Below, piece after piece: positions 16,034 to 33,696 of a DNA stretch of 35,663 nucleotides. The position numbers were made by a program, and so were the translations under genes. The stretch is taken from contig JACQTX010000136.1 of NCBI GenBank assembly GCA_016210585.1, positions 1 to 35,663 on the forward strand. Direction: 5' to 3'. The notes under the pieces are model-generated. The model searched no databases. It was not told the origin of the DNA and worked only from the letters and a program-made list of their open reading frames with translations. How positions within the stretch are numbered: the stretch's first letter is position 1; every line of letters begins with the position of its first letter. This stretch comes from Chloroflexota bacterium (GTDB taxonomy: Bacteria > Chloroflexota > Dehalococcoidia > Dehalococcoidales > JAFGLR01).

Positions 16034-16479
16034 TGGGAGTAGAGCGATTGGACCATATCCATATCTATGTGAAAGACCTGCCGGGTGCGATGAAGCTGTT
16101 TTCGGCCATACTGGGCACCAAGTTCAGCAAGGTAATTAACAATCCGGAGCCGCTCGCCTTTGACGGCACTTTAGACCCACTGGGCGTAGAGCTTATTGCA
16201 GCGACTTCGCCTACAAGTCATATAGCGAAGTCAATAGAAAAGCGCGGTGAGGGGCTGTCCGCCATCTCGCTGAAAGTCACCGACATTGAAGAGACCACCC
16301 GGAAGCTGGAAGGACTTGGACTGCGTGTGGTTGGCCGGCTAGAAAAGGGTGGCCTGAAAGAGGTGCATTTCCATCCCAAGGATGCCTATGGTGTCCAGAT
16401 AGAGCTTTGCCAGTATGATGATGTGCACGGGGCTATCGTTGTCGCTGAAAGCGGCGCCGACAGACTCACGACTGAGTGA
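16033..16479 (+). CDS. VOC/glyoxalase-superfamily protein, paralog of 7128..7559
   Basis: RLDHIHIYVKDLPGAMKLFSAILGTKF...VHFHPKDAYGVQIELCQYDDVHGAIVVAES, extensively alignable with the first VOC protein. Confidence 0.87.
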   Translation: MGVERLDHIHIYVKDLPGAMKLFSAILGTKFSKVINNPEPLAFDGTLDPLGVELIAATSPTSHIAKSIEKRGEGLSAISLKVTDIEETTRKLEGLGLRVVGRLEKGGLKEVHFHPKDAYGVQIELCQYDDVHGAIVVAESGADRLTTE

Positions 16480-16493
16480 TTCGGGGGGTTAGC

Positions 16494-17969
16494 ATGCGGA
16501 GTTCAAGCGAATACATCGAAAATCTAAGGAGGATGAGGCCCAATCTCTACATTGGCGGCGAAAAGGTTGGGCGGGATGACCCAAGAATAAAACCGGGTAT
16601 CAATGCTGTTTCGCTAAGTTTCGACCTGGCGCAAAAGCCAGAGTGGGATGGACTGCTTACAGCAATATCCTCTCTAACGGGCAAAAAAGTAAACCGCTTT
16701 ACCCATCTACCTCAGCATCCTTTCGACCTGATGCAAAAACAGAAAATGATACGTCTGCTCTGTCACAGGACTGGTGGTTGTATCCAGAGATGCATGGGAA
16801 TGGATGCTATTATCGGCCTATCCATAGTCACCAAAGAGATTGACGAAAAATACGCTACGAGTTACCATTCTCGCTTCATGGAATACCTAAAGTGGTATCA
16901 AGAAAATGACCTGGCCGGGACATGTGCCCAGACCGATATGAAAGGCGACCGAATGAAGCGGCCCGCCGAACAGGTTGACCCTGACGCCTATGTCCATGTG
17001 GTTGAAGTTAGAGATGACGGCATCGTGGTAAAGGGTGCCAAGCACTGTATTACCATGGCCGCCTATGCCGAGGAATTGCTCGTCATTCCCACTCGTGCCC
17101 TGACCGAAGCAGACAAAGACTACGCTGTTGCTTTCGCTCTTCCGGCGGACTGGGAAGGCGTTCATCTCATTACCCACCCGGTGTCAGTGCGGCCGCGGCG
17201 GAAACTGGAGTGCCCTTATGCCAGCTACGGCGTTTCCGACTCCATGATAGTTTTCGATAATGTTTTTGTTCCCAAAGAGCGCGTCTTCATGTGCCGGGAG
17301 TGGGAATTTGCGCGGAGGCTCGCTTTGCTCTTTGCCGATTCACATCGGCATAGCTACTCCGGCTGTAAGCCGGCCGTGTCCGATGTTCTTGGCGGTGCCG
17401 CGGCCCTCGTTGCTGAAGCCAATAACATTGCCAAGGTTTCTCACGTTAGAGAGAAGCTCTCCGAGTTTGCCAGCGCTGCCGAGCTAGCCTATGCCGCGGG
17501 AGTAGCTTCCGCCATCTACGGTGAGAAGACCTCCTCGGGCACTTTCTTTCCGAATACCATTTACGCTAATGTTGGGCGGCGGCTTACTGGTGAGAACATT
17601 TTCCATGAATTCAATCTGCTCGTCGAAGTAGCCGGCGGGATAGCGGTGACCCTGCCTTACGAGGATGATTTCAATGTTGAACCGACAAAGGCCTGGCTGG
17701 AAAAATACATCATAAGAAACCCGAGTTTGTCGGCGGAGGACTCGCACCGCATCTGGAGACTAGTAGAGAATCTGACGGCCTCATCCATGGCGTGCTGGTA
17801 TGAGATTGCGGGTGTGCATGGTGGCGGCTCACCGGTTATGGAAACCATTGCACTGAACCAGGAGTATGATTACGCAGCCCGTCAGAGAATAGCACGCTAC
17901 CTGGCTGGTATTGACAAGGAACTGGACCAGTCCGGGCAACTGAAGGAAGAACCAAACTCGCTTTTCTGA
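16494..17969 (+). CDS. 4-hydroxybutyryl-CoA dehydratase-like (HpaB/AbfD superfamily)
   Basis: Retains the 4Fe-4S ligand pattern: GGCIQRCMGMDA (CxxxC) and SHRHSYSGCK (Hx6C), plus TDMKGDR. ATG 16494 preferred over GTG 16476. Confidence 0.86.
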   Translation: MRSSSEYIENLRRMRPNLYIGGEKVGRDDPRIKPGINAVSLSFDLAQKPEWDGLLTAISSLTGKKVNRFTHLPQHPFDLMQKQKMIRLLCHRTGGCIQRCMGMDAIIGLSIVTKEIDEKYATSYHSRFMEYLKWYQENDLAGTCAQTDMKGDRMKRPAEQVDPDAYVHVVEVRDDGIVVKGAKHCITMAAYAEELLVIPTRALTEADKDYAVAFALPADWEGVHLITHPVSVRPRRKLECPYASYGVSDSMIVFDNVFVPKERVFMCREWEFARRLALLFADSHRHSYSGCKPAVSDVLGGAAALVAEANNIAKVSHVREKLSEFASAAELAYAAGVASAIYGEKTSSGTFFPNTIYANVGRRLTGENIFHEFNLLVEVAGGIAVTLPYEDDFNVEPTKAWLEKYIIRNPSLSAEDSHRIWRLVENLTASSMACWYEIAGVHGGGSPVMETIALNQEYDYAARQRIARYLAGIDKELDQSGQLKEEPNSLF

Positions 17970-18863: not shown

Positions 18864-20102
18864 ATGGGCAGCAGCATAGCGCACAAGATACTCGTGAAAA
18901 AATCAGGCAATAAGCCAATAGATGAAGGCGATGTCATCTACGCGGAGCCTGACCTGGTATTGCTGTATGACTGGCCGGGCTTCGATGGTTTCATGCGCAA
19001 CATCAGGATAAACCCGGACAAGATAGTCCTGAATATTGACCACTTCTTTCTGCCCAACACTGAACTGGCCGCGAAGACCCACCGTAACTATCGGGAGACG
19101 GCTAAGAAATACGGCATCAAACACTTCTACGATATCGGCAATAACGGCATCGGTTTTCATCTGGCCGCTGAAAAGGGACATATCAAGCCGGGGATGCTGA
19201 TTGTCCATGCCGACCCGCACGTCAGCACCTTCGGTGCCTTTGGCGCCTACTGTGTCGGTGTGGGGGGCGACCTCATGTCCGCTTTCCTGATGGATGAAGT
19301 GTGGCTGCGAGTGCCCCAAGTCATCAAAGTAAACCTGAGCGGCAATTTTGCCGCTGGCGTTACCAGCCGGGACCTCTTCGAGCATATCCTGGCTGACCTT
19401 GGCCCTGACGGAGCGGTTGGTCAAGTGCTGGAGTTCACCGGCCCGGCACTGGCCGCAATGAGCATGGACAGTCGCATGGGCTTGTGTAGCTCCATGCAAT
19501 ACCTTTCCGCCGAAACGGCCATTATAAACCCTGATGAAACAACCTACCAGTATGTCAGGTCAAGGACGGAAGAGCCTTTTGAGGCTGTCCTGAGTGACCC
19601 GGACGCAGCCTATGCCAGGGTGCTCAACTACGATGTGTCCGGGCTTGAGCCAATGGTAGTTACCCCTCCCGACGTCTATTACGTTAAAAGGGTTGGGGAG
19701 GTGGCGGGCATTGACATAGACCAGGCGTTCATTGGCACCTGTGCCAACGGGCGGCTCGATGACCTCCGGCTGGCTGCCCGCATACTAAAGGGAAGGAAAG
19801 TTCACCCGCGGGTCAGGTTCCTGGTAACGCCGGTCACGCAGCAGACCATGCTCGATGCCGTAAAGGAGGGTATCATAGATACATTTCTGCAGGCGGGTGT
19901 GCTTGTGGGGCCGCCCACCTGCGGGCCATGCTATGGCGGTTTCGGCTATCTTCTGCCCGGCGAGACGTGTTTGTCCACCGGCACGCTGAACATTCCCGGA
20001 CGCATGGGTAGCACGGAGGCGAAGATATACATGGCCAACCCGGCTACGGTGGCCGCCTCGGCCATTGAAGGGAAGATCACCGACCCCAGAAAGTACTTCT
20101 AG
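18864..20102 (+). CDS. aconitase/IPM-isomerase-family hydro-lyase large subunit (divergent)
   Basis: GTCANGRLDDLRLAARIL, GPPTCGPCYGG cluster-Cys motifs; HADPHVSTFGAFGAYCVGVG. Confidence 0.9.
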   Translation: MGSSIAHKILVKKSGNKPIDEGDVIYAEPDLVLLYDWPGFDGFMRNIRINPDKIVLNIDHFFLPNTELAAKTHRNYRETAKKYGIKHFYDIGNNGIGFHLAAEKGHIKPGMLIVHADPHVSTFGAFGAYCVGVGGDLMSAFLMDEVWLRVPQVIKVNLSGNFAAGVTSRDLFEHILADLGPDGAVGQVLEFTGPALAAMSMDSRMGLCSSMQYLSAETAIINPDETTYQYVRSRTEEPFEAVLSDPDAAYARVLNYDVSGLEPMVVTPPDVYYVKRVGEVAGIDIDQAFIGTCANGRLDDLRLAARILKGRKVHPRVRFLVTPVTQQTMLDAVKEGIIDTFLQAGVLVGPPTCGPCYGGFGYLLPGETCLSTGTLNIPGRMGSTEAKIYMANPATVAASAIEGKITDPRKYF

Positions 20103-20103
20103 C

Positions 20104-21528
20104 ATGGCAGGCATATTGTCTTACGGCGCCTATGTCCCGGTCTGGCGGATAAGCCGGGATGAAATTGCCCGCAATTCCGGCGGCGGGTCCATGGCCGGTG
20201 AGAGAGCGGTGGCTTCACGGGACGAAGATAGCTTGACCATGGCGGTAGAGGCCGGCCTTGACTGCCTGGGTAGTTTAGACTCCCAGGAGATAGACGAGCT
20301 GTACTTTGCCACAACCTCTTCTCCCTTTGTTGAGAAACAGGGTGCCGCTATTATTGCCTCCGCCCTGGACTTGCGCCGGGACGTTACTACTTGCGACATG
20401 ACGGGCTCGTTGAGGGCCAGCGTTCTGGCGGTCAAAGCGGCTGCCGATGCCGTCCAAGCAGGCAGGGCCAGGAAAGTCCTGGTTCTTGCAGCTGACGCAA
20501 GGAAGGCCCGGCCACGCTCTGATTTGGAGCAAAGTTCCGGTGACGGCGCCGCTGCCCTGCTGATTGGTGCCGGAGACGGTATAGCCCGCTTGGAAGGCTT
20601 TGCCAGCGCAGTTAACGCCATACCAGGGCCATGGAAACGGACGGAGGACGATTACCCTAATGTCTTTGACGCCAGATTCGACACCAGATACGGTTTCCTG
20701 AATGATATGCCCCAGGCAATGGCCAGCGTAATGGCGAAATGCGAGGTGGGTGCTGACACAATATCACGGTTTGCCCTTTACGCACCCGACCCGAGAAGTC
20801 ATATGGCCCTGGCCAGGGCAATGAAACTTGACCTAAAGACTCAGCTACAGGACATCATGTTCAGCAGCGTCGGCGTAACCGGCACAGCTCACAGCCTGCT
20901 GCTCCTTGTGGCCGCGCTGGAGAGAGCCACGGCGGGGCAATGGTTGCTGTGCGCCGGCTACGGGGAAGGTAGTACGGCCTTGCTGTCCAGAGCCACAGGA
21001 AAAATCGAGCAAGAACAAGGAAAGCACCGTGGGACAAAGTATGCCTTATCAGGGCGGCTTTTGCCCTCCTACGGGCATTTTCTTGACTTCAAGAATGAAA
21101 TTGACACGGGCTGGCCGGAGTGGCAAAAGAGCTCTGTCGTGAGATACTGGCGCGACGAGAATTCGGCGTTACGTCTTCACGGGATGAAGTGCCGCGCCTG
21201 CGGCGGCTTGCAGTACCCGGTGAGCCGGGTCTGCGCATTGTGTGGCGCAAAGGATAGCTACGAGGATGTGAGGCTCACCAGAAAGGGAAAGGTCTTTTCC
21301 TACACCCACGATTACCTCTTAGGCCCGGGCAACGTGCCGCCGGATGGCATCAGTCCCACGACGCGCGTTGTCGTTGACCTAGAGGACGGTTGCCGGTTAT
21401 GGCTGGAGATGACCGACCCTGACACGAGCGAAATCGGGGTGGGAACGCCGGTCGAACTCACCTTCCGGCTAGTAAACGAGAAGAGTAATTACCGCTTCTA
21501 CGGCTGGAAAGCCCGGCCCGTGAGATAG
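20104..21528 (+). CDS. HMG-CoA synthase-like (thiolase-fold) protein fused to C-terminal DUF35/OB-fold zinc-ribbon domain
   Basis: GILSYGAYVPVWRISRDEIA; DEDSLTMAVEAGLDCL; C-terminal MKCRACGGLQYPVSRVCALCGAKD zinc ribbon + OB fold. ATG 20104 preferred over listed 20065. Confidence 0.85.
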   Translation: MAGILSYGAYVPVWRISRDEIARNSGGGSMAGERAVASRDEDSLTMAVEAGLDCLGSLDSQEIDELYFATTSSPFVEKQGAAIIASALDLRRDVTTCDMTGSLRASVLAVKAAADAVQAGRARKVLVLAADARKARPRSDLEQSSGDGAAALLIGAGDGIARLEGFASAVNAIPGPWKRTEDDYPNVFDARFDTRYGFLNDMPQAMASVMAKCEVGADTISRFALYAPDPRSHMALARAMKLDLKTQLQDIMFSSVGVTGTAHSLLLLVAALERATAGQWLLCAGYGEGSTALLSRATGKIEQEQGKHRGTKYALSGRLLPSYGHFLDFKNEIDTGWPEWQKSSVVRYWRDENSALRLHGMKCRACGGLQYPVSRVCALCGAKDSYEDVRLTRKGKVFSYTHDYLLGPGNVPPDGISPTTRVVVDLEDGCRLWLEMTDPDTSEIGVGTPVELTFRLVNEKSNYRFYGWKARPVR

Positions 21529-21541
21529 CGGATGGTCTCGG

Positions 21542-22720
21542 ATGAGAATGAGAGAAGGCATAAGAGACAAAGTAGCCATTATCGGCACCGGCGTAACTAA
21601 GTTCGGCGAACACTGGGATAAATCAGCCGGTGATTTGATTGTTGACGCGGTGCACGCGGCCTGTGGCGAGGCCAATGTTGACCTGAAGAGAGATGTAGAG
21701 GCCATCTGGGCCAGCACTCTATATTACTGGTCAGGGATGTCTGGCTGGATTGCCGCTGACCCGCTGCGGTTCTACGGGAAGCCAGTGACCAGGGTGGAGA
21801 ACCAGTGCGCCTCAGGAATGGATGCCGTCAGGAATGCCGCTTATGCCGTTGCTGCCGGTGCCTACGACATAGTAGTCGCCTGCGGGGTAGAGAAACTGCT
21901 CGACCAGGGCGGCCGGGGGCTTTCCCAGGAAATAGTCCACACACACCCCGTGCTGGCCTGGCAGTCCGCCCCGGCCTATTTTGCCCCGTGTGCCGTCAGT
22001 GCCTTCAAGGAATGGGGCTGGTCAAGGGAAGACCTGGCCAGGGTTGCCGTTAAGAACCATCATAACGGGGCGAAACATCCAAAGGCTCATTTCCAGATGG
22101 AGATAACCGCCGAAATGGTGCTGAAAGCACCGATGGTCGCTTATCCGCTCGGTCTCTTTGATTGCTGCGGCTTGTCCGAAGGCGCTGCGGCTGTTGTTCT
22201 TACGAGGCCGGATATAGCCCGGAGTCTTGTTGGCGATAGTTACGCCTCGATCAAAGCCTTGGCCCTGGCGGTGGAGACGCAGTGGCCCTATTTCCGTCCA
22301 GACTGGACAGGGCTAGCACTGCCAGCGAATGTCAAGGCGGCGCAAATGGCCTACAGGGAAGCCGGTATTACAAATCCGCGGCGAGAGCTGGACTTCGCCG
22401 TTGTGCATGATTGTTTCACCATCACTGAGTTACTCATCTATCAGGATTTAGGACTGTGCCCACCCGGCGAGGCGACCGAGTTGGTCAAGAGTGGCGTCAC
22501 CGCCATTGATGGCGAGTTCCCGGTAAATCCTGATGGCGGACTGAAGTGCTTCGGGCACCCGGTTGGTGCCACCGGTGTCAGGATGGTTGCCGAGCTCACT
22601 AAACAGGTGCTGGGCAAAGCAGAGGGTTACCAGGTAAAGGATGCCAACATCGGGTTAGCCCACAACCTGGGTGGTCCACAAGCTATCGCTTCGGTGGCTA
22701 TTGTTGGTAAACCGGATTAG
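21542..22720 (+). CDS. thiolase / acetyl-CoA C-acyltransferase family (SCP2-type)
   Basis: ENQCASGMDAVRNAAYAVAAGAYDIVVACGVEKL; HDCFTITELL; CFGHPVGATGVRM. Confidence 0.93.
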   Translation: MRMREGIRDKVAIIGTGVTKFGEHWDKSAGDLIVDAVHAACGEANVDLKRDVEAIWASTLYYWSGMSGWIAADPLRFYGKPVTRVENQCASGMDAVRNAAYAVAAGAYDIVVACGVEKLLDQGGRGLSQEIVHTHPVLAWQSAPAYFAPCAVSAFKEWGWSREDLARVAVKNHHNGAKHPKAHFQMEITAEMVLKAPMVAYPLGLFDCCGLSEGAAAVVLTRPDIARSLVGDSYASIKALALAVETQWPYFRPDWTGLALPANVKAAQMAYREAGITNPRRELDFAVVHDCFTITELLIYQDLGLCPPGEATELVKSGVTAIDGEFPVNPDGGLKCFGHPVGATGVRMVAELTKQVLGKAEGYQVKDANIGLAHNLGGPQAIASVAIVGKPD

Positions 22721-22737: not shown

Positions 22738-23262
22738 ATGGATATGGAAGATATCATAAGGGGCAAAGTAGTATGGCAGTTCGGCGATAACTTTAATGCG
22801 GACCTGATAGTCGGTTCCCGATATATCGAAGAACGCGATCCCGAGGTGCTGGGGAAGGTGTGTTTGGCTGACCTTGATGCTGGGTTCTCGCAACGCGTCA
22901 AGCCGGGCGACATGGTAATCGCCGGACGCAACTTCGGCTACGGGCATCCCCACTACCAGGGGCTAATATCCCTGCAGAGAGCCGGGGTATCCGTATTGAT
23001 TGCCGAGTCCCTCTATCCGGTGTGGTACCGGATGGCAGTCTTCTATGCTTTCCCAGCCCTGGAATGTCCGGGTATCAGCCAGAAGGCAAAACCAAATGAC
23101 CAGTTGGAAGTAGCCGTCAGCACGGGTCTAGTCAAGAACTTGACCACGGGAGAAGTGCTACAGGCTGAACCGATGCCGCAGTTCCTGCTCGATATCGTAA
23201 AGGAGGGCGGCATGGTGGCACACCTTAAGAAGAAGCTGGCTGCTGCCCAGACACCAAAGTAA
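22738..23262 (+). CDS. aconitase/IPM-isomerase-family small (swivel) subunit, divergent
   Basis: GKVVWQFGDNFNADLIVGSRYI; PGDMVIAGRNFGYGHPHYQGLISLQRAGVSVLIAESLYPVWYRMAVFYAFP, alignable to LeuD. Confidence 0.85.
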   Translation: MDMEDIIRGKVVWQFGDNFNADLIVGSRYIEERDPEVLGKVCLADLDAGFSQRVKPGDMVIAGRNFGYGHPHYQGLISLQRAGVSVLIAESLYPVWYRMAVFYAFPALECPGISQKAKPNDQLEVAVSTGLVKNLTTGEVLQAEPMPQFLLDIVKEGGMVAHLKKKLAAAQTPK

Positions 23263-25855: not shown

Positions 25856-26713
25856 ATGGACCTCAGCATACTGCCACAGACGCTATTAAATGGTGTTATT
25901 CTAGCCGGAATTTATGTCTTGGTCGCCATGGGCATAACCCTCGTATTCGCCATAATGCAAATACCCAACTTTGTCCACGGCGAATTTCTCATGATAGGAG
26001 CCGTTGCGACCTATTTCCTCGTTACTTTCGGATTAAGCTATCCCTTTGCCATTCTGGTGGCAATGGTGTTCGTAGCTTTACTGGGGGTGATGGTTGAGCG
26101 AATTTTCTTCAAACCGTTCCGCGGCGACCATTTGCCGGTGATAATTATCTGCCTCGGTCTGATTGCCATAATTCAGAGTAGTGCATTTATGGTCTTTGGT
26201 ACTGAAGTGCGTATGGTCCCCGTGTATTTCCAGGGCGTAGTGAGCCTGGGTAACGTAGCCACGTCAGTGGAGAGGCTGGTAATAGTCATAGCTGCGGTAA
26301 TACTTATCACAGTTCTGTACTATTTTGTACGCTACATGAAAATCGGCCGGGCCATGCGAGCTGTCCAGCAAAATCCGGAAGGGGCGGCTCTGCAAGGCAT
26401 AAACATAAACGCGGTATCGAGCACAGCAATGGCGATTGGTTCCGGGCTAGCTGGTGCTGCCGGCGCATTGCTGGCACCGGTGTTCTTTGTAACACCGACG
26501 ATGGGCTCTGACTATCTCCTTAAGGGCTTCATCGTAGTGATTATTGGCGGGATGGGCAGCATTTCCGGTGTCATCCTTGGCGGGATAGCTCTGGGCTTAA
26601 TAGATGCCATAGCGGTAGCTTACCTGGGCAGCTCTCTGGGCAACATCATCGGATTTGTCCTTCTCATAGTGATAATAATGGTCAAACCTAAAGGAATACT
26701 CGGTCGTGACTAA
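25856..26713 (+). CDS. livH: branched-chain amino acid-type ABC transporter permease (LivH)
   Basis: LNGVILAGIYVLVAMGITLVFAIMQIPNFVHGEF; GRAMRAVQQNPEGAALQGIN; GGMGSISGVILGG. Confidence 0.95.
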   Translation: MDLSILPQTLLNGVILAGIYVLVAMGITLVFAIMQIPNFVHGEFLMIGAVATYFLVTFGLSYPFAILVAMVFVALLGVMVERIFFKPFRGDHLPVIIICLGLIAIIQSSAFMVFGTEVRMVPVYFQGVVSLGNVATSVERLVIVIAAVILITVLYYFVRYMKIGRAMRAVQQNPEGAALQGININAVSSTAMAIGSGLAGAAGALLAPVFFVTPTMGSDYLLKGFIVVIIGGMGSISGVILGGIALGLIDAIAVAYLGSSLGNIIGFVLLIVIIMVKPKGILGRD

Positions 26714-27701
26714 AGGGACTACCAGGAATTTGTCAGCCGTGATAGCAGGGGGCATCTTCCTGCTAGCTCTTCCTCTGTTTCTGAAGAGTCCGTACTTTTT
26801 ACACATGCTGATTATGACCATGCTCGCCATAATTTACGCCGTTACGCTGCGTCCCCTAGTGATAACCGGACAGCTCAGTCTGGCACACGCCGCCTTCGTT
26901 GGTATTGGCGCGTATGCCTCAGCTCTCCTGGTGACGCGCCTGGGCATCTCCTTCTGGCTGGCACTACCCATGAGCGGTCTCATTGCCGCGCTTATTGCCG
27001 TGATTATTGGCTTTCCTGCCTTGCGGGCAAAAGGGCTCTTCTTCGCTATCGTTACCTTTGGCTTCACCGAGGTCGCCCGTTACACTTACATGGGCGTGAC
27101 CAGCCTGTTTGGTGGGCCGGCTGGCTTCAGGGGTATTACTCCGCCGGTGCTTGCGGGAATCCAGTTTGGGGGCAACAAGGTGGCTTACTATTATCTAATG
27201 GCCTTCCTCCTCACAATTACTCTTTTGGCCTGGTACAGCTTGGAGAAGTCGCGCTTCATGCTCACGGTGAGAGCTATCGGCAAGGCAGAGAACCTGGCCG
27301 AGGCGGTCGGTGTTAACCTGACCAAATATAAGATGGTAACATTTGTTTTCGCGGCTTTCTTCACTGGCATTGCCGGTAGCTTTTATGCCCACTATAATCT
27401 ATATATTGCTCCGATAAATTTCTCGGTCTGGCAATCTATAGCCTTCCTGACGTTAGTGGTGGTGGGCGGCAAGGAAAGGTTTATTGGGCCAATAGTAGGT
27501 GCTATTTTTCTCACCTTCATACCCGAGTTTCTGCACGGGACGGGGTATTTCCAGGCCATGCTGTACGGTGGCCTGATGGTGTTGACAGTCCTGTTTATGC
27601 CCAACGGCCTTATTGGCATACCGGGACAGATTGCGGCATTGACGTCAAGGCTAAGAAAAGTGAGGAAAGCGGGATGGCCTTTCTCGAAACCAGCAAGCTA
27701 A
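26706..27701 (+). CDS. livM: branched-chain amino acid-type ABC transporter permease (LivM)
   Basis: GQLSLAHAAFVGIGAYASALLV; GFPALRAKGLFFAIVTFGFTEVAR; SRFMLTVRAIGKAENLAEAVGVNLTKYK. Confidence 0.95.
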   Translation: MTKGTTRNLSAVIAGGIFLLALPLFLKSPYFLHMLIMTMLAIIYAVTLRPLVITGQLSLAHAAFVGIGAYASALLVTRLGISFWLALPMSGLIAALIAVIIGFPALRAKGLFFAIVTFGFTEVARYTYMGVTSLFGGPAGFRGITPPVLAGIQFGGNKVAYYYLMAFLLTITLLAWYSLEKSRFMLTVRAIGKAENLAEAVGVNLTKYKMVTFVFAAFFTGIAGSFYAHYNLYIAPINFSVWQSIAFLTLVVVGGKERFIGPIVGAIFLTFIPEFLHGTGYFQAMLYGGLMVLTVLFMPNGLIGIPGQIAALTSRLRKVRKAGWPFSKPAS

Positions 27702-28456
27702 CCAAGCGCTTTGCCGGACTACTGGCGGTAAACCATCTGGACCTGACAGTCAATGATGGCGAGGTCCTAGGCCTGATTGGCCCGAACGGCGCCGGCAAAA
27801 CCACGGTCTTCAATTTGATAGCGGGTACCATCCCGGCTACAGGTGGCAAGGTTATCTTCAGAGGCGAGGATATTTCGCGCTTGCCGCCATATCAGGTCGC
27901 TAGGCGAGGCATAATTCGCACCTTTCAGCTCAACACTGTCTTTCCGGACCTCTCCGTCACCGAGAACGTTGTCCTGGGCAGTCATTTGCAAGCGCGGACG
28001 GGTTTCTGGGGCGAACTCTTCAAAATGCCCGCGACGCGTCGCAGCGACCGCGAGATTGCTGGGAGGGCAGAGCAGCTAGTGGCTTCGGTCGGACTGCTGC
28101 GTCAGGATATGGACAAGCGACAAGCCCTCGCTAGCAATCTGTCTTACGGGCAGGTAAAGGCCCTGACGCTGGCAATAGCCTTGGCCGCCGACCCCAAGCT
28201 CCTGCTGCTGGATGAGCCGATGACCGGCGTCGGCGTTCGCGACGTTCCCAGACTGCTGAACCTAATCAGGGAGATTAATGGCCGCGGCATTGCTATTTTG
28301 CTGATTGAGCATAATATGAAGGCAGCCTTCGAGGTCTGCCACCGCATTGTGGTCATGAACCACGGCGATAAGATTGCGGAAGGCACACCCGCTGAAGTCA
28401 AAGACAACCCAGATGTAATCGAAGCCTACCTGACTAAGGATGGCCATGGGGCATAG
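27674..28456 (+). CDS. livG: ABC transporter ATP-binding protein (LivG)
   Basis: Walker A GPNGAGKTT; LSYGQVKALTLAIAL; LLLLDEPMTG. Confidence 0.95.
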   Translation: MAFLETSKLTKRFAGLLAVNHLDLTVNDGEVLGLIGPNGAGKTTVFNLIAGTIPATGGKVIFRGEDISRLPPYQVARRGIIRTFQLNTVFPDLSVTENVVLGSHLQARTGFWGELFKMPATRRSDREIAGRAEQLVASVGLLRQDMDKRQALASNLSYGQVKALTLAIALAADPKLLLLDEPMTGVGVRDVPRLLNLIREINGRGIAILLIEHNMKAAFEVCHRIVVMNHGDKIAEGTPAEVKDNPDVIEAYLTKDGHGA

Positions 28457-29165
28457 CATGTCTATCTGTCTTAAGAATGTATCTATCCACTATGGTGTCG
28501 TCGAGGCGGTAGCTGACGTCTGTCTCGAGGAAGAGCACCGGCAAATAATCAGTCTCCTCGGTGGTAATGGCTGCGGCAAAACATCGGTCATGAAGGCCAT
28601 TTCCGGGTTGATAAGGCCGTCCTCCGGCGAGATATGGTTTGATGGCAAACGGATAGACCGGCTATCTACCGGGGAAATTATCCGCCTCGGCATAGTACAG
28701 GTGCCACAGGGACGGCAGCTTTTTCCAGACATGACAGTCCATGAGAACTTAATCATGGGCGCCTATACTCGCAAGAGTAAGAAGGAGATACAGGCGGACA
28801 TGGAGATGGTCATTGCCCATTTTCCGGTATTGATGAAGAAGCGCAAACAAAAGGCGGGGACACTCAGCGGCGGACAGCAGGAGGCTCTCGCTTTCGGCCG
28901 GGCGCTCATGGCCAAACCCAGGCTACTGCTGATGGACGAACCGTCGCAGGGTCTGGCACCGGCTGTCGTCCAGGAAGTTAATCAGATTATCAAGGAGGTT
29001 AACCAGAAAGGCATCGGTGTTATTCTAGTCGAGCATAACCTGAGGCTGGCGCTCGACCTGGCAGATAAGGTCTACGTTCTGGAGGCAGGCCGCAAGATTT
29101 TTCAAGGCACGCCCAAAGACCTGTCACAGGATGACTACGTGAGGAAAATCTACCTCGGCACGTGA
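28440..29165 (+). CDS. livF: ABC transporter ATP-binding protein (LivF); ATG 28458 is an alternative start
   Basis: Walker A GGNGCGKTS; LSGGQQEALAFGRALM; LLLMDEPSQGLAP. Confidence 0.95.
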   Translation: MAMGHSMSICLKNVSIHYGVVEAVADVCLEEEHRQIISLLGGNGCGKTSVMKAISGLIRPSSGEIWFDGKRIDRLSTGEIIRLGIVQVPQGRQLFPDMTVHENLIMGAYTRKSKKEIQADMEMVIAHFPVLMKKRKQKAGTLSGGQQEALAFGRALMAKPRLLLMDEPSQGLAPAVVQEVNQIIKEVNQKGIGVILVEHNLRLALDLADKVYVLEAGRKIFQGTPKDLSQDDYVRKIYLGT

Positions 29166-30770: not shown

Positions 30771-31748
30771 TCAACACCCGCAGACCTCTCTACAGGCTTG
30801 AACAATATCCCTGGCCCCGGGTAGCACGGCGTTTTCTAGGGAAGGGGCAAAGGGAATGGGCACGGAAGGCGCCCCAATTCGCTTGACGGGCGCATCCAGG
30901 TAATCGAAGGCCATTTCGGTAACAGTGGCCGCAATCTCCGCCCCCAAGCCACAAAAGCGCACCGCCTCATGAGCGACCACGAGCCGGCTCGTCTTCTTCA
31001 CCGAGGCGATAATAGGCTCAATATCAAGCGGATAAATGGTGCGAGGGTCAACCACTTCCACATCAATGCCCGCCTTCTCCAGGTCCTGAGCTGCCGTGAG
31101 CGCCTGTGACACCATCTCGGCAGTGGCCACAACAGTCACGTCCTTGCCGGCGCGTTTTGTCTCGGCAACACCCAGTGGAACGGTATACTCTCCCTCCGGA
31201 ACCTCACCTGGAGCACGCAACAACCCCTTGTGGTAGAGATACATCACAGGGTTATTGTCCCGGACAGCTGCTTTTAGCAGTCCCTTGGCATCATAAGAAG
31301 TGGAAGGCATGACCACCTTGATGCCTGGCGTATGGGCAAACCAGGCTTCCAGAGACTGGGAATGTTGCGGCCCGGCGCCCACCCGTCCACCGCAGCTTGC
31401 CATAATAACCAGCGGCACGCCTTGATGTTGCCCAGGGAACATATACTGCAGCTTCGCCATGTGGTTCACCAATGGGTCCATGCAAACCGTGACGAAGTCC
31501 ATTATGGTCAGCTCTACGATGGGTCTGAGTCCGTTGAGGGCCGCACCAACGGCAAGCCCTACTATGCCTGATTCGGAAATAGGCGTGTCAATTATGCGGT
31601 CAGTGCCGAAACGCTCAACCAGTCCACGTGTGCTGGCGAAGGCAGTGCCCATTCCGACGTCCTCACCGAGAATCAATACCCGGCTATCTCGCTCCAACTC
31701 CTCGGCTAAAGCTTCGGTGATAGCTTTATGATAGCGGATGCTCTTCAT
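30771..31748 (-). CDS. 2-oxoacid/acetoin dehydrogenase E1 component, beta subunit
   Basis: AITEALAEELERDSRVLILGEDVGMGTAFASTRGLVERFGTDRIIDTPISESGIVGLAVGAALNGLRPIVE; VVDPRTIYPLD. Confidence 0.95.
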   Translation of the reverse strand: MKSIRYHKAITEALAEELERDSRVLILGEDVGMGTAFASTRGLVERFGTDRIIDTPISESGIVGLAVGAALNGLRPIVELTIMDFVTVCMDPLVNHMAKLQYMFPGQHQGVPLVIMASCGGRVGAGPQHSQSLEAWFAHTPGIKVVMPSTSYDAKGLLKAAVRDNNPVMYLYHKGLLRAPGEVPEGEYTVPLGVAETKRAGKDVTVVATAEMVSQALTAAQDLEKAGIDVEVVDPRTIYPLDIEPIIASVKKTSRLVVAHEAVRFCGLGAEIAATVTEMAFDYLDAPVKRIGAPSVPIPFAPSLENAVLPGARDIVQACREVCGC

Positions 31749-32806
31749 TCAGTCCCTTCAGTGAAGACGCCGCGCAGCGCATCTGCCGGGTCGGGTGCCG
31801 GACTAGCGGTAGCGAATTCAAAGGCTGCGGTTACCTGCCTCTCTACTTCAGCCTTGACCTTCTCCAATTCCGCTGGCGTAAATACCTTTTCCATTAGTAA
31901 ATAGTCTTCAAACCGGGGGATTGGGTCACTGCGTTTGCACGCCTCAAGCTCATCTTTAGGTCGATACGCCTGGGGGTCACCGACGAAATGTCCCAGCCAG
32001 CGGTGCGTGCAGCATTCCAGCAGTGTAGGACCCTCCCCTCTCCTGGCCCGGGCGACAGCCCTTCCCGCGGCGCGATGGACAGCGATAACGTCATCGCCAT
32101 CAATTGTTTCTCCTGGCATACCATAGGACGCGGCGCGGACGGAAACGTCACCGATTTTCATAGCTTTACGTTGGGGCACCGAGACTCCATAACCATTGTT
32201 TTCACAGACATAGAGGATGGGCAAGTCCCACACTGCTGCCAGGTTAAGACTCTCGTGGAAGGCCCCTTGATTGGTAGCACTTTCGCCCAAAAAAGCCACT
32301 ACCACTTGTCCTGTTTTGCGATATCGTGAGGCGAAAGCAACGCCAGTGGCCAGTGAAAGGCCACCGGCAACTACACCGCTCGAACCGATGACACCTTTTG
32401 ACCAGTCGGCCATGTGCATCTCACCGCCTCTGCCGCCACAGATGCCGTCTCGTTTCCCCATAACTTCCGCCATCAGCGGGCCTGGTGCCATTCCCTTTGC
32501 CAGGAAATGGCCGCGGCAGCGGTGGGTGGACGCCACGAAATCATCCTCATTCAAGTGGGCACAGACACCGACAGCTATGGCTTCCTGACCCAGATAGGAG
32601 TGGAGCCAGCCGGGTAGCTTTCCTGACAGGAACATCTCCACTGTCCGCTCTTCCATCCGGCGCAGCAGGACCAGCATGCGGAACATCCAATCCAAGGTCT
32701 CAGTCGCCACATCGGATTGTAAGTCCTCTGAACTTTGCGGCTCTGTCTTGGCCATCAAATCCTTACCTGTCATCGTCCTGGTTACCGCCGCATCTTGGCG
32801 CGTCAC
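31745..32806 (-). CDS. 2-oxoacid/acetoin dehydrogenase E1 component, alpha subunit
   Basis: GWLHSYLGQEAIAVGVCAHL; FVASTHRCRGHFLAKG; VVAFLGESATNQGAFHESLNLAAVWDLPILYVCENNGYG. Confidence 0.95.
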   Translation of the reverse strand: MTRQDAAVTRTMTGKDLMAKTEPQSSEDLQSDVATETLDWMFRMLVLLRRMEERTVEMFLSGKLPGWLHSYLGQEAIAVGVCAHLNEDDFVASTHRCRGHFLAKGMAPGPLMAEVMGKRDGICGGRGGEMHMADWSKGVIGSSGVVAGGLSLATGVAFASRYRKTGQVVVAFLGESATNQGAFHESLNLAAVWDLPILYVCENNGYGVSVPQRKAMKIGDVSVRAASYGMPGETIDGDDVIAVHRAAGRAVARARRGEGPTLLECCTHRWLGHFVGDPQAYRPKDELEACKRSDPIPRFEDYLLMEKVFTPAELEKVKAEVERQVTAAFEFATASPAPDPADALRGVFTEGTE

Positions 32807-33696
32807 GACTTGGACTGGGGCTGTTCCGCATAGTATTTCTCCTCATAATCAATAACTTCGCGCAGGTTCATGAACTTGAAAAAGCCCCGGTAGTCCGGAG
32901 CACCGAGGCGTCCGAGGGTTTCCTTGACGGTTCCCTTCTCTTTGATTTCCTGCATCACATCGGCAACTGCCTTCTGAGCCGCAAACAATGCCTCCACCGC
33001 GTATGTCACCAGCCCTCTTGCCCCCGTTTGCCGAAGTTCGTTGACGGTAACATCAGTATGACAACCGAGAAGCAACCATAATGGTGCCCGTATGCCTCTT
33101 ACGAGCGCCCCAAACTCCTCCCGCTTGGCAGTTAACGGCATCACGAGGTCAGCACCGGCTTTTGCATAAGCATTACAACGGTCAATCTGCTCCTGCAAGG
33201 AGACAATGTCAGAATCGGTCCTGGCAGCAATGATGAAATCCGGGTCTTCCCGCGCTTCTAGGGCGGCCCTTATCTTGATGACCATTTCATCTCTGGGGAC
33301 TATCTTCTTGTATTTGCCAAGGGCACCACACCTGACCGGATGTTGCTGGTCTTCCAGGAAGATACCGGCGATGCCCGCCCTCTCCATCTCCCTCACCGTG
33401 CGCTGTATGTTAGTCAAGCTACCGTAGCCATCCTCGGCGTCAGCGAGTACGGGTATGTTTACCAGATTGGCAATGTTTCGGGTTTGGTTTACCACCTCGC
33501 TCATGGTCAGCAGACCAACATCGGGCTTGCCTAGGAGGCTAGCCGAAAGACCAAACCCACCGACAAAAACTGCCTTAAAACCTGCCTGCTCAATCACCCG
33601 GGCACTGACTCCATCGTATGCCCCCGGTGCTTCGACGATTTGGTCTTCGGACAAGTACTTCCTCAATAGAGCGGTTTTCTTCATTTCACCCTCCAT
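32803..33696 (-). CDS. PEP mutase / isocitrate lyase-superfamily carbon-carbon lyase (2-methylisocitrate or 2,3-dimethylmalate lyase-like)
   Basis: VEAPGAYDGVSARVIEQAGFKAVFVGGFG; PVLADAEDGYGS; GIFLEDQQHPVRCGALGKYKKIVP; FIIAARTDS. Confidence 0.9.
   Translation of the reverse strand: MEGEMKKTALLRKYLSEDQIVEAPGAYDGVSARVIEQAGFKAVFVGGFGLSASLLGKPDVGLLTMSEVVNQTRNIANLVNIPVLADAEDGYGSLTNIQRTVREMERAGIAGIFLEDQQHPVRCGALGKYKKIVPRDEMVIKIRAALEAREDPDFIIAARTDSDIVSLQEQIDRCNAYAKAGADLVMPLTAKREEFGALVRGIRAPLWLLLGCHTDVTVNELRQTGARGLVTYAVEALFAAQKAVADVMQEIKEKGTVKETLGRLGAPDYRGFFKFMNLREVIDYEEKYYAEQPQSKS

Follow-up and report, generated by a model that had tools for sequence, protein, structure and literature searches.

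The aconitase superfamily is a textbook case of enzymes whose active-site residues are said to be kept while the substrates change. In the accepted mechanism of aconitase, Ser642 is the general base, and superfamily members other than aconitase X are reported to share more than 15 of 20 identical active-site residues (PMC8184944). Aconitase X, a cis-3-hydroxyproline or mevalonate-5-phosphate dehydratase, provides a precedent for an aconitase fold with a rebuilt site and unusual substrates (PMC8184944, PMC5144071), and it retains the serine base too (PMC8184944). The two-subunit form is represented by the isopropylmalate/citramalate isomerase LeuCD of Methanocaldococcus (4nqy/4kp1, large subunit; 3vba, small subunit). 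Aconitase-type pairs also lie near lyase-family genes: DmdAB of nicotinate fermentation is found with the 2,3-dimethylmalate lyase, a member of the isocitrate lyase family, and in phosphonate clusters of the pantaphos type, PEP-mutase-superfamily and LeuCD-like genes are described as neighbours. In the methylisocitrate and isocitrate lyases of this family, a CGH motif serves the leaving group.

Here we analysed a stretch of 35,663 nucleotides from a Chloroflexota bacterium (the window), which contains an aconitase-type gene pair. The features of the pair are as follows.

18864–20102, plus strand: aconitase-type large subunit, partner of 22738–23262 (Pfam, alignments, model)
22738–23262, plus strand: aconitase-type small (swivel) subunit with a GHPHY loop, 174 aa (profile, PDB search, model, tree)
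22930–22965, plus strand: catalytic loop NFGYGHPHYQGL, residues 65–76 of the small subunit (ungapped alignment to 3vba/1v7l/2pkp)

Loop and active-site residues of the gene pair

The product of 22738–23262 is of the LeuD type, scoring over the cut-off of the TIGR02087 profile (1.1e-36), and a PDB sequence search matched it to 3vba (1.3e-44). Its AlphaFold model (pLDDT 94.3) superposed on 3vba with a TM of 0.93 (target-normalised) and an rmsd of 1.6 A in Foldseek. Residues 64–76 of this product read RNFGYGHPHYQGL, with RNFGYGHPHYQGLI at the place where LeuD proteins have NFGCGSSREHAP, and GHPHY aligned without gaps to the GSSRE of 3vba, 1v7l, and 2pkp. Using the residue numbering of mitochondrial aconitase, which we take from established knowledge of that enzyme, we found His70, Pro71, and His72 at the positions of Ser642, Ser643, and Arg644, so the Ser642 and Ser643-Arg644 of the loop in the superfamily (aconitase X apart) are missing here. 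A preliminary description, made from the sequence alone, had claimed that the canonical loop of the small subunit is replaced and that its Ser and Arg are both lost. The intact ORF, the LeuD profile and fold, and the gap-free alignment opposite GSSRE confirm the replacement, and the changes Ser642 to His70 and Arg644 to His72 confirm the double loss.

The large subunit matched Pfam PF00330 (1e-70), and the pair has the two-subunit architecture of the superfamily (large domains 1–3 plus a swivel subunit). Both predicted folds are confident. In Foldseek, the model of 18864–20102 reached a TM of 0.92 to LeuCD structures, compared with 0.57–0.59 to aconitase X structures; LeuCD being much closer, membership of the pair in aconitase X was rejected. 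All NCBIfam equivalog cut-offs for IPMI/LeuCD and homoaconitase were widely missed (large subunit, 367.9 against 610.65 for LEU2; small subunit, 125.5 against 245.85 for leud).

Alignments showed that the cluster cysteines C293, C353, and C356 are present in 18864–20102 and invariant in its relatives, and the pair is predicted to bind a [4Fe-4S] cluster. Also retained are D59-H60 (Asp100-His101), D117 (Asp165), H119 (His167), and R380 (Arg452); across the alignments of the clade that carries GHPH, the cluster cysteines, Asp59-His60, and Arg380 are invariant. The altered positions are Ser166 (Pro118), Glu262 (Tyr213), Asn446 (Thr374), and Arg447 (Leu375), and alignment to mitochondrial aconitase and relatives placed a Ser at Asn258. 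The NRNFxGR motif reads TLNIPGR, with Arg452 in place and Arg447 gone. The equivalent of His147 is Phe in the four-member subclade of the window and His in the wider clade, so the hydroxyl chemistry may differ in that subclade. Near-invariant positions of the clade are Y35, H73, H115, and R169 in the large subunit and Y68, H70, P71, H72, and P94 in the small one. Of the aconitase active-site positions that could be placed, roughly half are kept in the window pair. The kept half comprises the cluster and the hydroxyl-leaving machinery, and the lost half the carboxylate grip.

Compared with Methanocaldococcus LeuCD, the pair shares the two-subunit architecture, the fold (TM about 0.9), the cluster cysteines, Asp100-His101, Arg452, and Asp568, but it has GHPHY for GSSRE, TLNI for NRNF, DPH for DSH, and Tyr at the Glu262 position. 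Aconitase X, unlike the GHPH sequences, has an equivalent of the Ser642 base (PMC8184944), and is far more distant (TM 0.57–0.59).

Distribution of the GHPH branch

A genome scan found relatives in Desulfobacteraceae (L034), Comamonadaceae (L035), and Deltaproteobacteria HGW-12 (L036), with 57–63% identity and all with GHPH. Another 77 loci, mostly at 35–41% identity and from Actinomycetota, Pseudomonadota, and Bacillota, were GHPH as well; because the six scan patterns included NFGYGHPH, this locus set is biased towards the loop and its invariance is partly by construction. The test was therefore repeated blind to the loop, on loci recovered via the large subunit or in full-length tblastn searches, some of which repeat earlier loci. 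Here, 15 pairs combined a large subunit lacking Arg447 with a GHPH small subunit, 52 combined an Arg447 large subunit with a GSSR/GSGR small subunit, and few were off the diagonal.

In the small-subunit tree built without the loop columns, a branch with 97/87 support, recovered in 96% of bootstraps, separated the GHPH sequences from the rest, and their partners likewise formed one branch in the large-subunit tree (SH-aLRT 96). The phylogeny proposed as a check in the preliminary description thus shows that the GHPHY motif marks a single branch, even with the loop columns removed. This branch spans Actinomycetota, Bacillota, Pseudomonadota, and Thermodesulfobacteriota. Public records list several genes of this branch as 3-isopropylmalate dehydratase. 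The literature searched yielded no report on the branch, whether on the family as a whole, on its gene pair, or on its loop. The GHPH branch is a widespread and so far uncharacterised variant within a known superfamily.

Presence of the pair is patchy. Among 100 related genomes searched, the window's own genome was the only one with the GHPH pair; of 150 further Comamonadaceae genomes, 7 contain an orthologue of the L047 large subunit; and when the class to which the L034 genome belongs was sampled, an orthologue came from that genome alone. This patchiness, together with a similarity of about 60% across phyla, suggests horizontal transfer. The tetranucleotide signature of the window was nearer to other loci of its own genome (0.87) than to module loci of other organisms (0.53–0.64), which argues against gross mis-binning.

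Other loop variants were seen among the aconitase-type pairs. L026 (G024:C124, from the same order as the window genome) lacks the serine loop, with GFGSGKTHELG in the small subunit and D-A-V for D-S-H and STANY for NRNF in the large subunit, and this large subunit groups next to the GHPH clade. A third variant on a Roseomonas marmotae plasmid (L125:7001-8993) has a small subunit with NFGHHNHVE, annotated as hypothetical, a large subunit with DEGN and TQQFN, and a tripartite tricarboxylate binding protein beside it. In two Comamonadaceae loci (L163, L164), small subunits with NFGGGGKT[VI]EG stand beside large subunits that keep Arg447 (NESHT ... GNRN). On Haloferax and Peribacillus plasmids (L118, L119), canonical LeuCD pairs occur together with HMG-CoA lyase and a CoA-transferase, a different module that is possibly of citramalate type.

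The partner lyase and the surroundings of the pair

The following further features of the window bear on the context of the pair.

16476–17969, plus strand: 4-hydroxybutyryl-CoA dehydratase / vinylacetyl-CoA isomerase-like protein, with 61–66% relatives in the module loci L034 and L036
20065–21528, plus strand: HMG-CoA-synthase-like protein ending in an OB/zinc-ribbon domain at its C-terminus, encoded between the large and small aconitase subunits
21542–22720, plus strand: thiolase-family protein, likewise encoded between the aconitase subunits
25856–29165, plus strand: ABC transporter permeases and ATPases of the branched-chain-amino-acid type; many module loci are flanked by comparable transporters
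30771–32806, minus strand: genes for the beta and alpha chains of a 2-oxoacid dehydrogenase E1, immediately next to the lyase gene
32803–33696, minus strand: isocitrate-lyase/PEP-mutase-family lyase, the third module member, with Cys123 and the core kept and CGH changed to CGA

A gene of the isocitrate-lyase/PEP-mutase family lay within 6 kb of the pair on the same strand in 74 of the 80 GHPH loci. For four of the remaining loci (L050, L074, L094, L097), the end of the locus is close to the pair; in L060 another gene takes the place of the lyase, and L082 is a clear exception. The L082 pair (L082:7697-11873, from a gut Clostridium MAG) has no lyase nearby and is flanked by a D-2-hydroxyacid dehydrogenase on one side and by a CitMHS carrier on the other, a neighbourhood that is a possible lead to the substrate class. 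In L034–L036 the gene order is lyase-large-small, with the lyase directly upstream of the large subunit, and these lyases share 58–60% identity with that of the window. The window lyase lies about 9.5 kb from the pair on the opposite strand, which counts against a coupling of the pair to the lyase. The subunit genes are adjacent in L034–L036, whereas those of the window are split by the genes at 20065–22720.

The module lyases keep the catalytic core, with D59, D86, E115, and R159 in all 78 and C123 in 77 of 78. These residues are common to methylisocitrate lyase PrpB and petal death protein of the same family, and the closest solved relatives of the partner lyase cleave 2-alkylmalates or methylisocitrate. 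In contrast to PrpB and petal death protein, the K-[KR]-C-G-H leaving-group motif is changed: CGH occurs in none of the 78 module lyases, C-P/G/A-x stands in its place, and the Glu188 and Asn210 positions are changed too. Lyases beside canonical GSSR pairs have CGH (L115, L124, L146, L147) or CGY (L129). Most lyases of the wider clade have a Lys or Arg near the Glu188 position, which could bind another anion, so that a dicarboxylate bound in a different way is possible. The pair and the lyase probably act in sequence, and alteration of the substrate sites in both enzymes points to a changed substrate. Phosphonate biosynthesis by a PEP mutase with LeuCD, as in the pantaphos clusters, is not favoured because the module lyase, unlike a PEP mutase of that type, keeps the lyase cysteine in its K-C motif and because PrpB outscored the PEP mutase models for the window lyase. 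A second aconitase-type pair in the window's own genome (L129, G000:C251) also neighbours a lyase of this family; the pair has canonical DSH, GTRNF, and GSSR, and the lyase has KRCGY.

Sharing of the loop with characterised IPMI or dimethylmaleate hydratases, which the preliminary description had named as evidence against a changed activity, was checked in part. The aligned solved IPMI/homoaconitase small subunits all have GSSRE. DmdAB was sought through a PrpF-family neighbour in 391 clostridial genomes, and the L146 cluster contained molybdenum hydroxylase subunits, an amidohydrolase, a B12 mutase, a PrpF/Mii protein, a KKCGH lyase, and a large/small pair; from these families and their neighbourhood we infer a nicotinate-fermentation set with a DmdAB-like pair. 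This pair, unlike that of the window, is canonical, with NFGCGSSREHAP (GSSREH) in the small subunit and DSH and NRNF in the large subunit; the sequences are likewise canonical in L147 (PrpF, lyase, LeuCD). Dimethylmaleate hydratase was accordingly rejected as the explanation of the GHPH loop, as the nicotinate-type cluster is canonical in both subunits of its pair. No B12 mutase or methylitaconate isomerase (PrpF family) was found among the window genes scanned, and PF04303 is absent from the L034, L036, and L037 genomes.

For 16476–17969, Pfam called HpaB, and the nearest structure was 4-hydroxybutyryl-CoA dehydratase (1u8v, 6e-112); it has the C-x3-C cluster motif and the second motif of that family (HxxxxxxC, that is, H-x6-C). 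An oxygen-dependent hydroxylase was rejected on the 1u8v match and the cluster motifs. The window also holds HgdAB/benzoyl-CoA-reductase-like subunits, CoA-transferases, a TRAP transporter, a DMSO-reductase-family protein, and a hydroxyacyl-CoA dehydrogenase, and is an anaerobe-type catabolic island. Other module loci have ABC, TRAP, tripartite tricarboxylate, or CitMHS uptake systems and IclR regulators nearby, as well as FAD-/NAD-linked 2-hydroxyacid dehydrogenases and acyl-CoA ligases. Judging by the transporters, the common theme of these loci would be the import and catabolism of organic acids. Clustering of all neighbouring ORFs gave little beyond the three genes, with interference from shadow ORFs in GC-rich loci.

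Proposed function and alternative explanations

We consider it probable that the pair is an active [4Fe-4S] hydro-lyase with a His base and without a citrate-style grip on a second carboxylate, which feeds an altered lyase in the breakdown of an imported acid. The enzyme may be a dehydratase, a hydratase, or an isomerase. On the conserved residues, the cluster would bind the alpha-hydroxy-carboxylate head group and His101-Asp100 would protonate the leaving hydroxyl, while His70 or His72 of the loop may transfer the proton at the neighbouring carbon in place of the Ser642 alkoxide. Because Arg447, Arg644, Ser643, and Ser166 are gone, a second carboxylate would be either absent or bound otherwise than in the citrate or isopropylmalate manner. 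For the same reason, the loss of the carboxylate-binding residues, the dimethylmaleate- or citrate-type substrates proposed in the preliminary description are not favoured. The co-inherited lyase would handle the product or the substrate of the pair and, with its altered leaving-group pocket, may release a 2-oxo acid (for example, pyruvate or glyoxylate) together with an unusual fragment; the transporters suggest that the module would break down an imported organic acid. More tentatively, the branch may represent a new one in the superfamily with a His base, hydrating, dehydrating, or isomerising a 2-hydroxy acid without the usual second carboxylate and coupled to an altered C-C lyase, in a catabolic pathway shared across phyla.

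It seems unlikely that the pair hydrates or isomerises an ordinary dicarboxylate of the 2-alkylmalate type (dimethylmalate, citramalate, isopropylmalate) whose second carboxylate is held by new residues, for which His70, His72, His73, His115, and the Lys/Arg of the partner lyase are candidates. The reactions of the closest solved lyases would suit such a substrate, and the clade-specific His73 and His115 of the large subunit, with the Lys/Arg found in most lyases, could form a new anion site; however, pairs that probably do such chemistry, including the DmdAB-like one, keep GSSREH, NRNF, DSH, and the CGH of the lyase, and there is no evident reason for rebuilding two enzymes for the same substrate. 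The loss of the base and of most carboxylate-binding residues would also fit a protein that has lost hydro-lyase catalysis, either a non-catalytic or regulatory Fe-S protein, as regulatory forms exist among aconitase proteins (IRP1 is one), or an enzyme of another Fe-S reaction such as isomerisation without dehydration. We regard this as quite improbable, given that GHPH is kept together with the cluster cysteines and the Asp-His pair across phyla, and that the association of the pair with transporters and a core-intact lyase fits a metabolic enzyme.

Random decay or an assembly artefact of an ordinary LeuD gene is scarcely credible. The window is a single MAG contig, and the related genomes searched, other than its own, lacked the module; against this, the ORF is intact, the same loop occurs in intact relatives at 57–63% identity from three other genomes and in more than 70 further loci, the partners co-vary, and the tetranucleotide signature is nearer to the window's own genome. 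Decay is ruled out by the loop shared among relatives, the tree branch, and the loop-blind co-variation. The view of the preliminary description that the loop reflects changed chemistry or substrate and not decay is supported by the single branch, the large-subunit changes, and the co-inherited, altered lyase, the latter two of which that description had not mentioned.

The GHPH branch departs from the textbook picture of the superfamily in that the cluster is kept while the base and most carboxylate ligands are dropped, and it marks a three-gene catabolic module. This module occurs in cultured, tractable bacteria (Variovorax, Azospirillum, Rhodococcus, Nocardia, and Neobacillus) and is thus directly testable. 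In Azospirillum lipoferum 4B, for example, the pair is AZOLI_RS20400/RS20405 and its lyase is RS20410. The GHPH pair and the altered lyase together point to an undescribed breakdown pathway.
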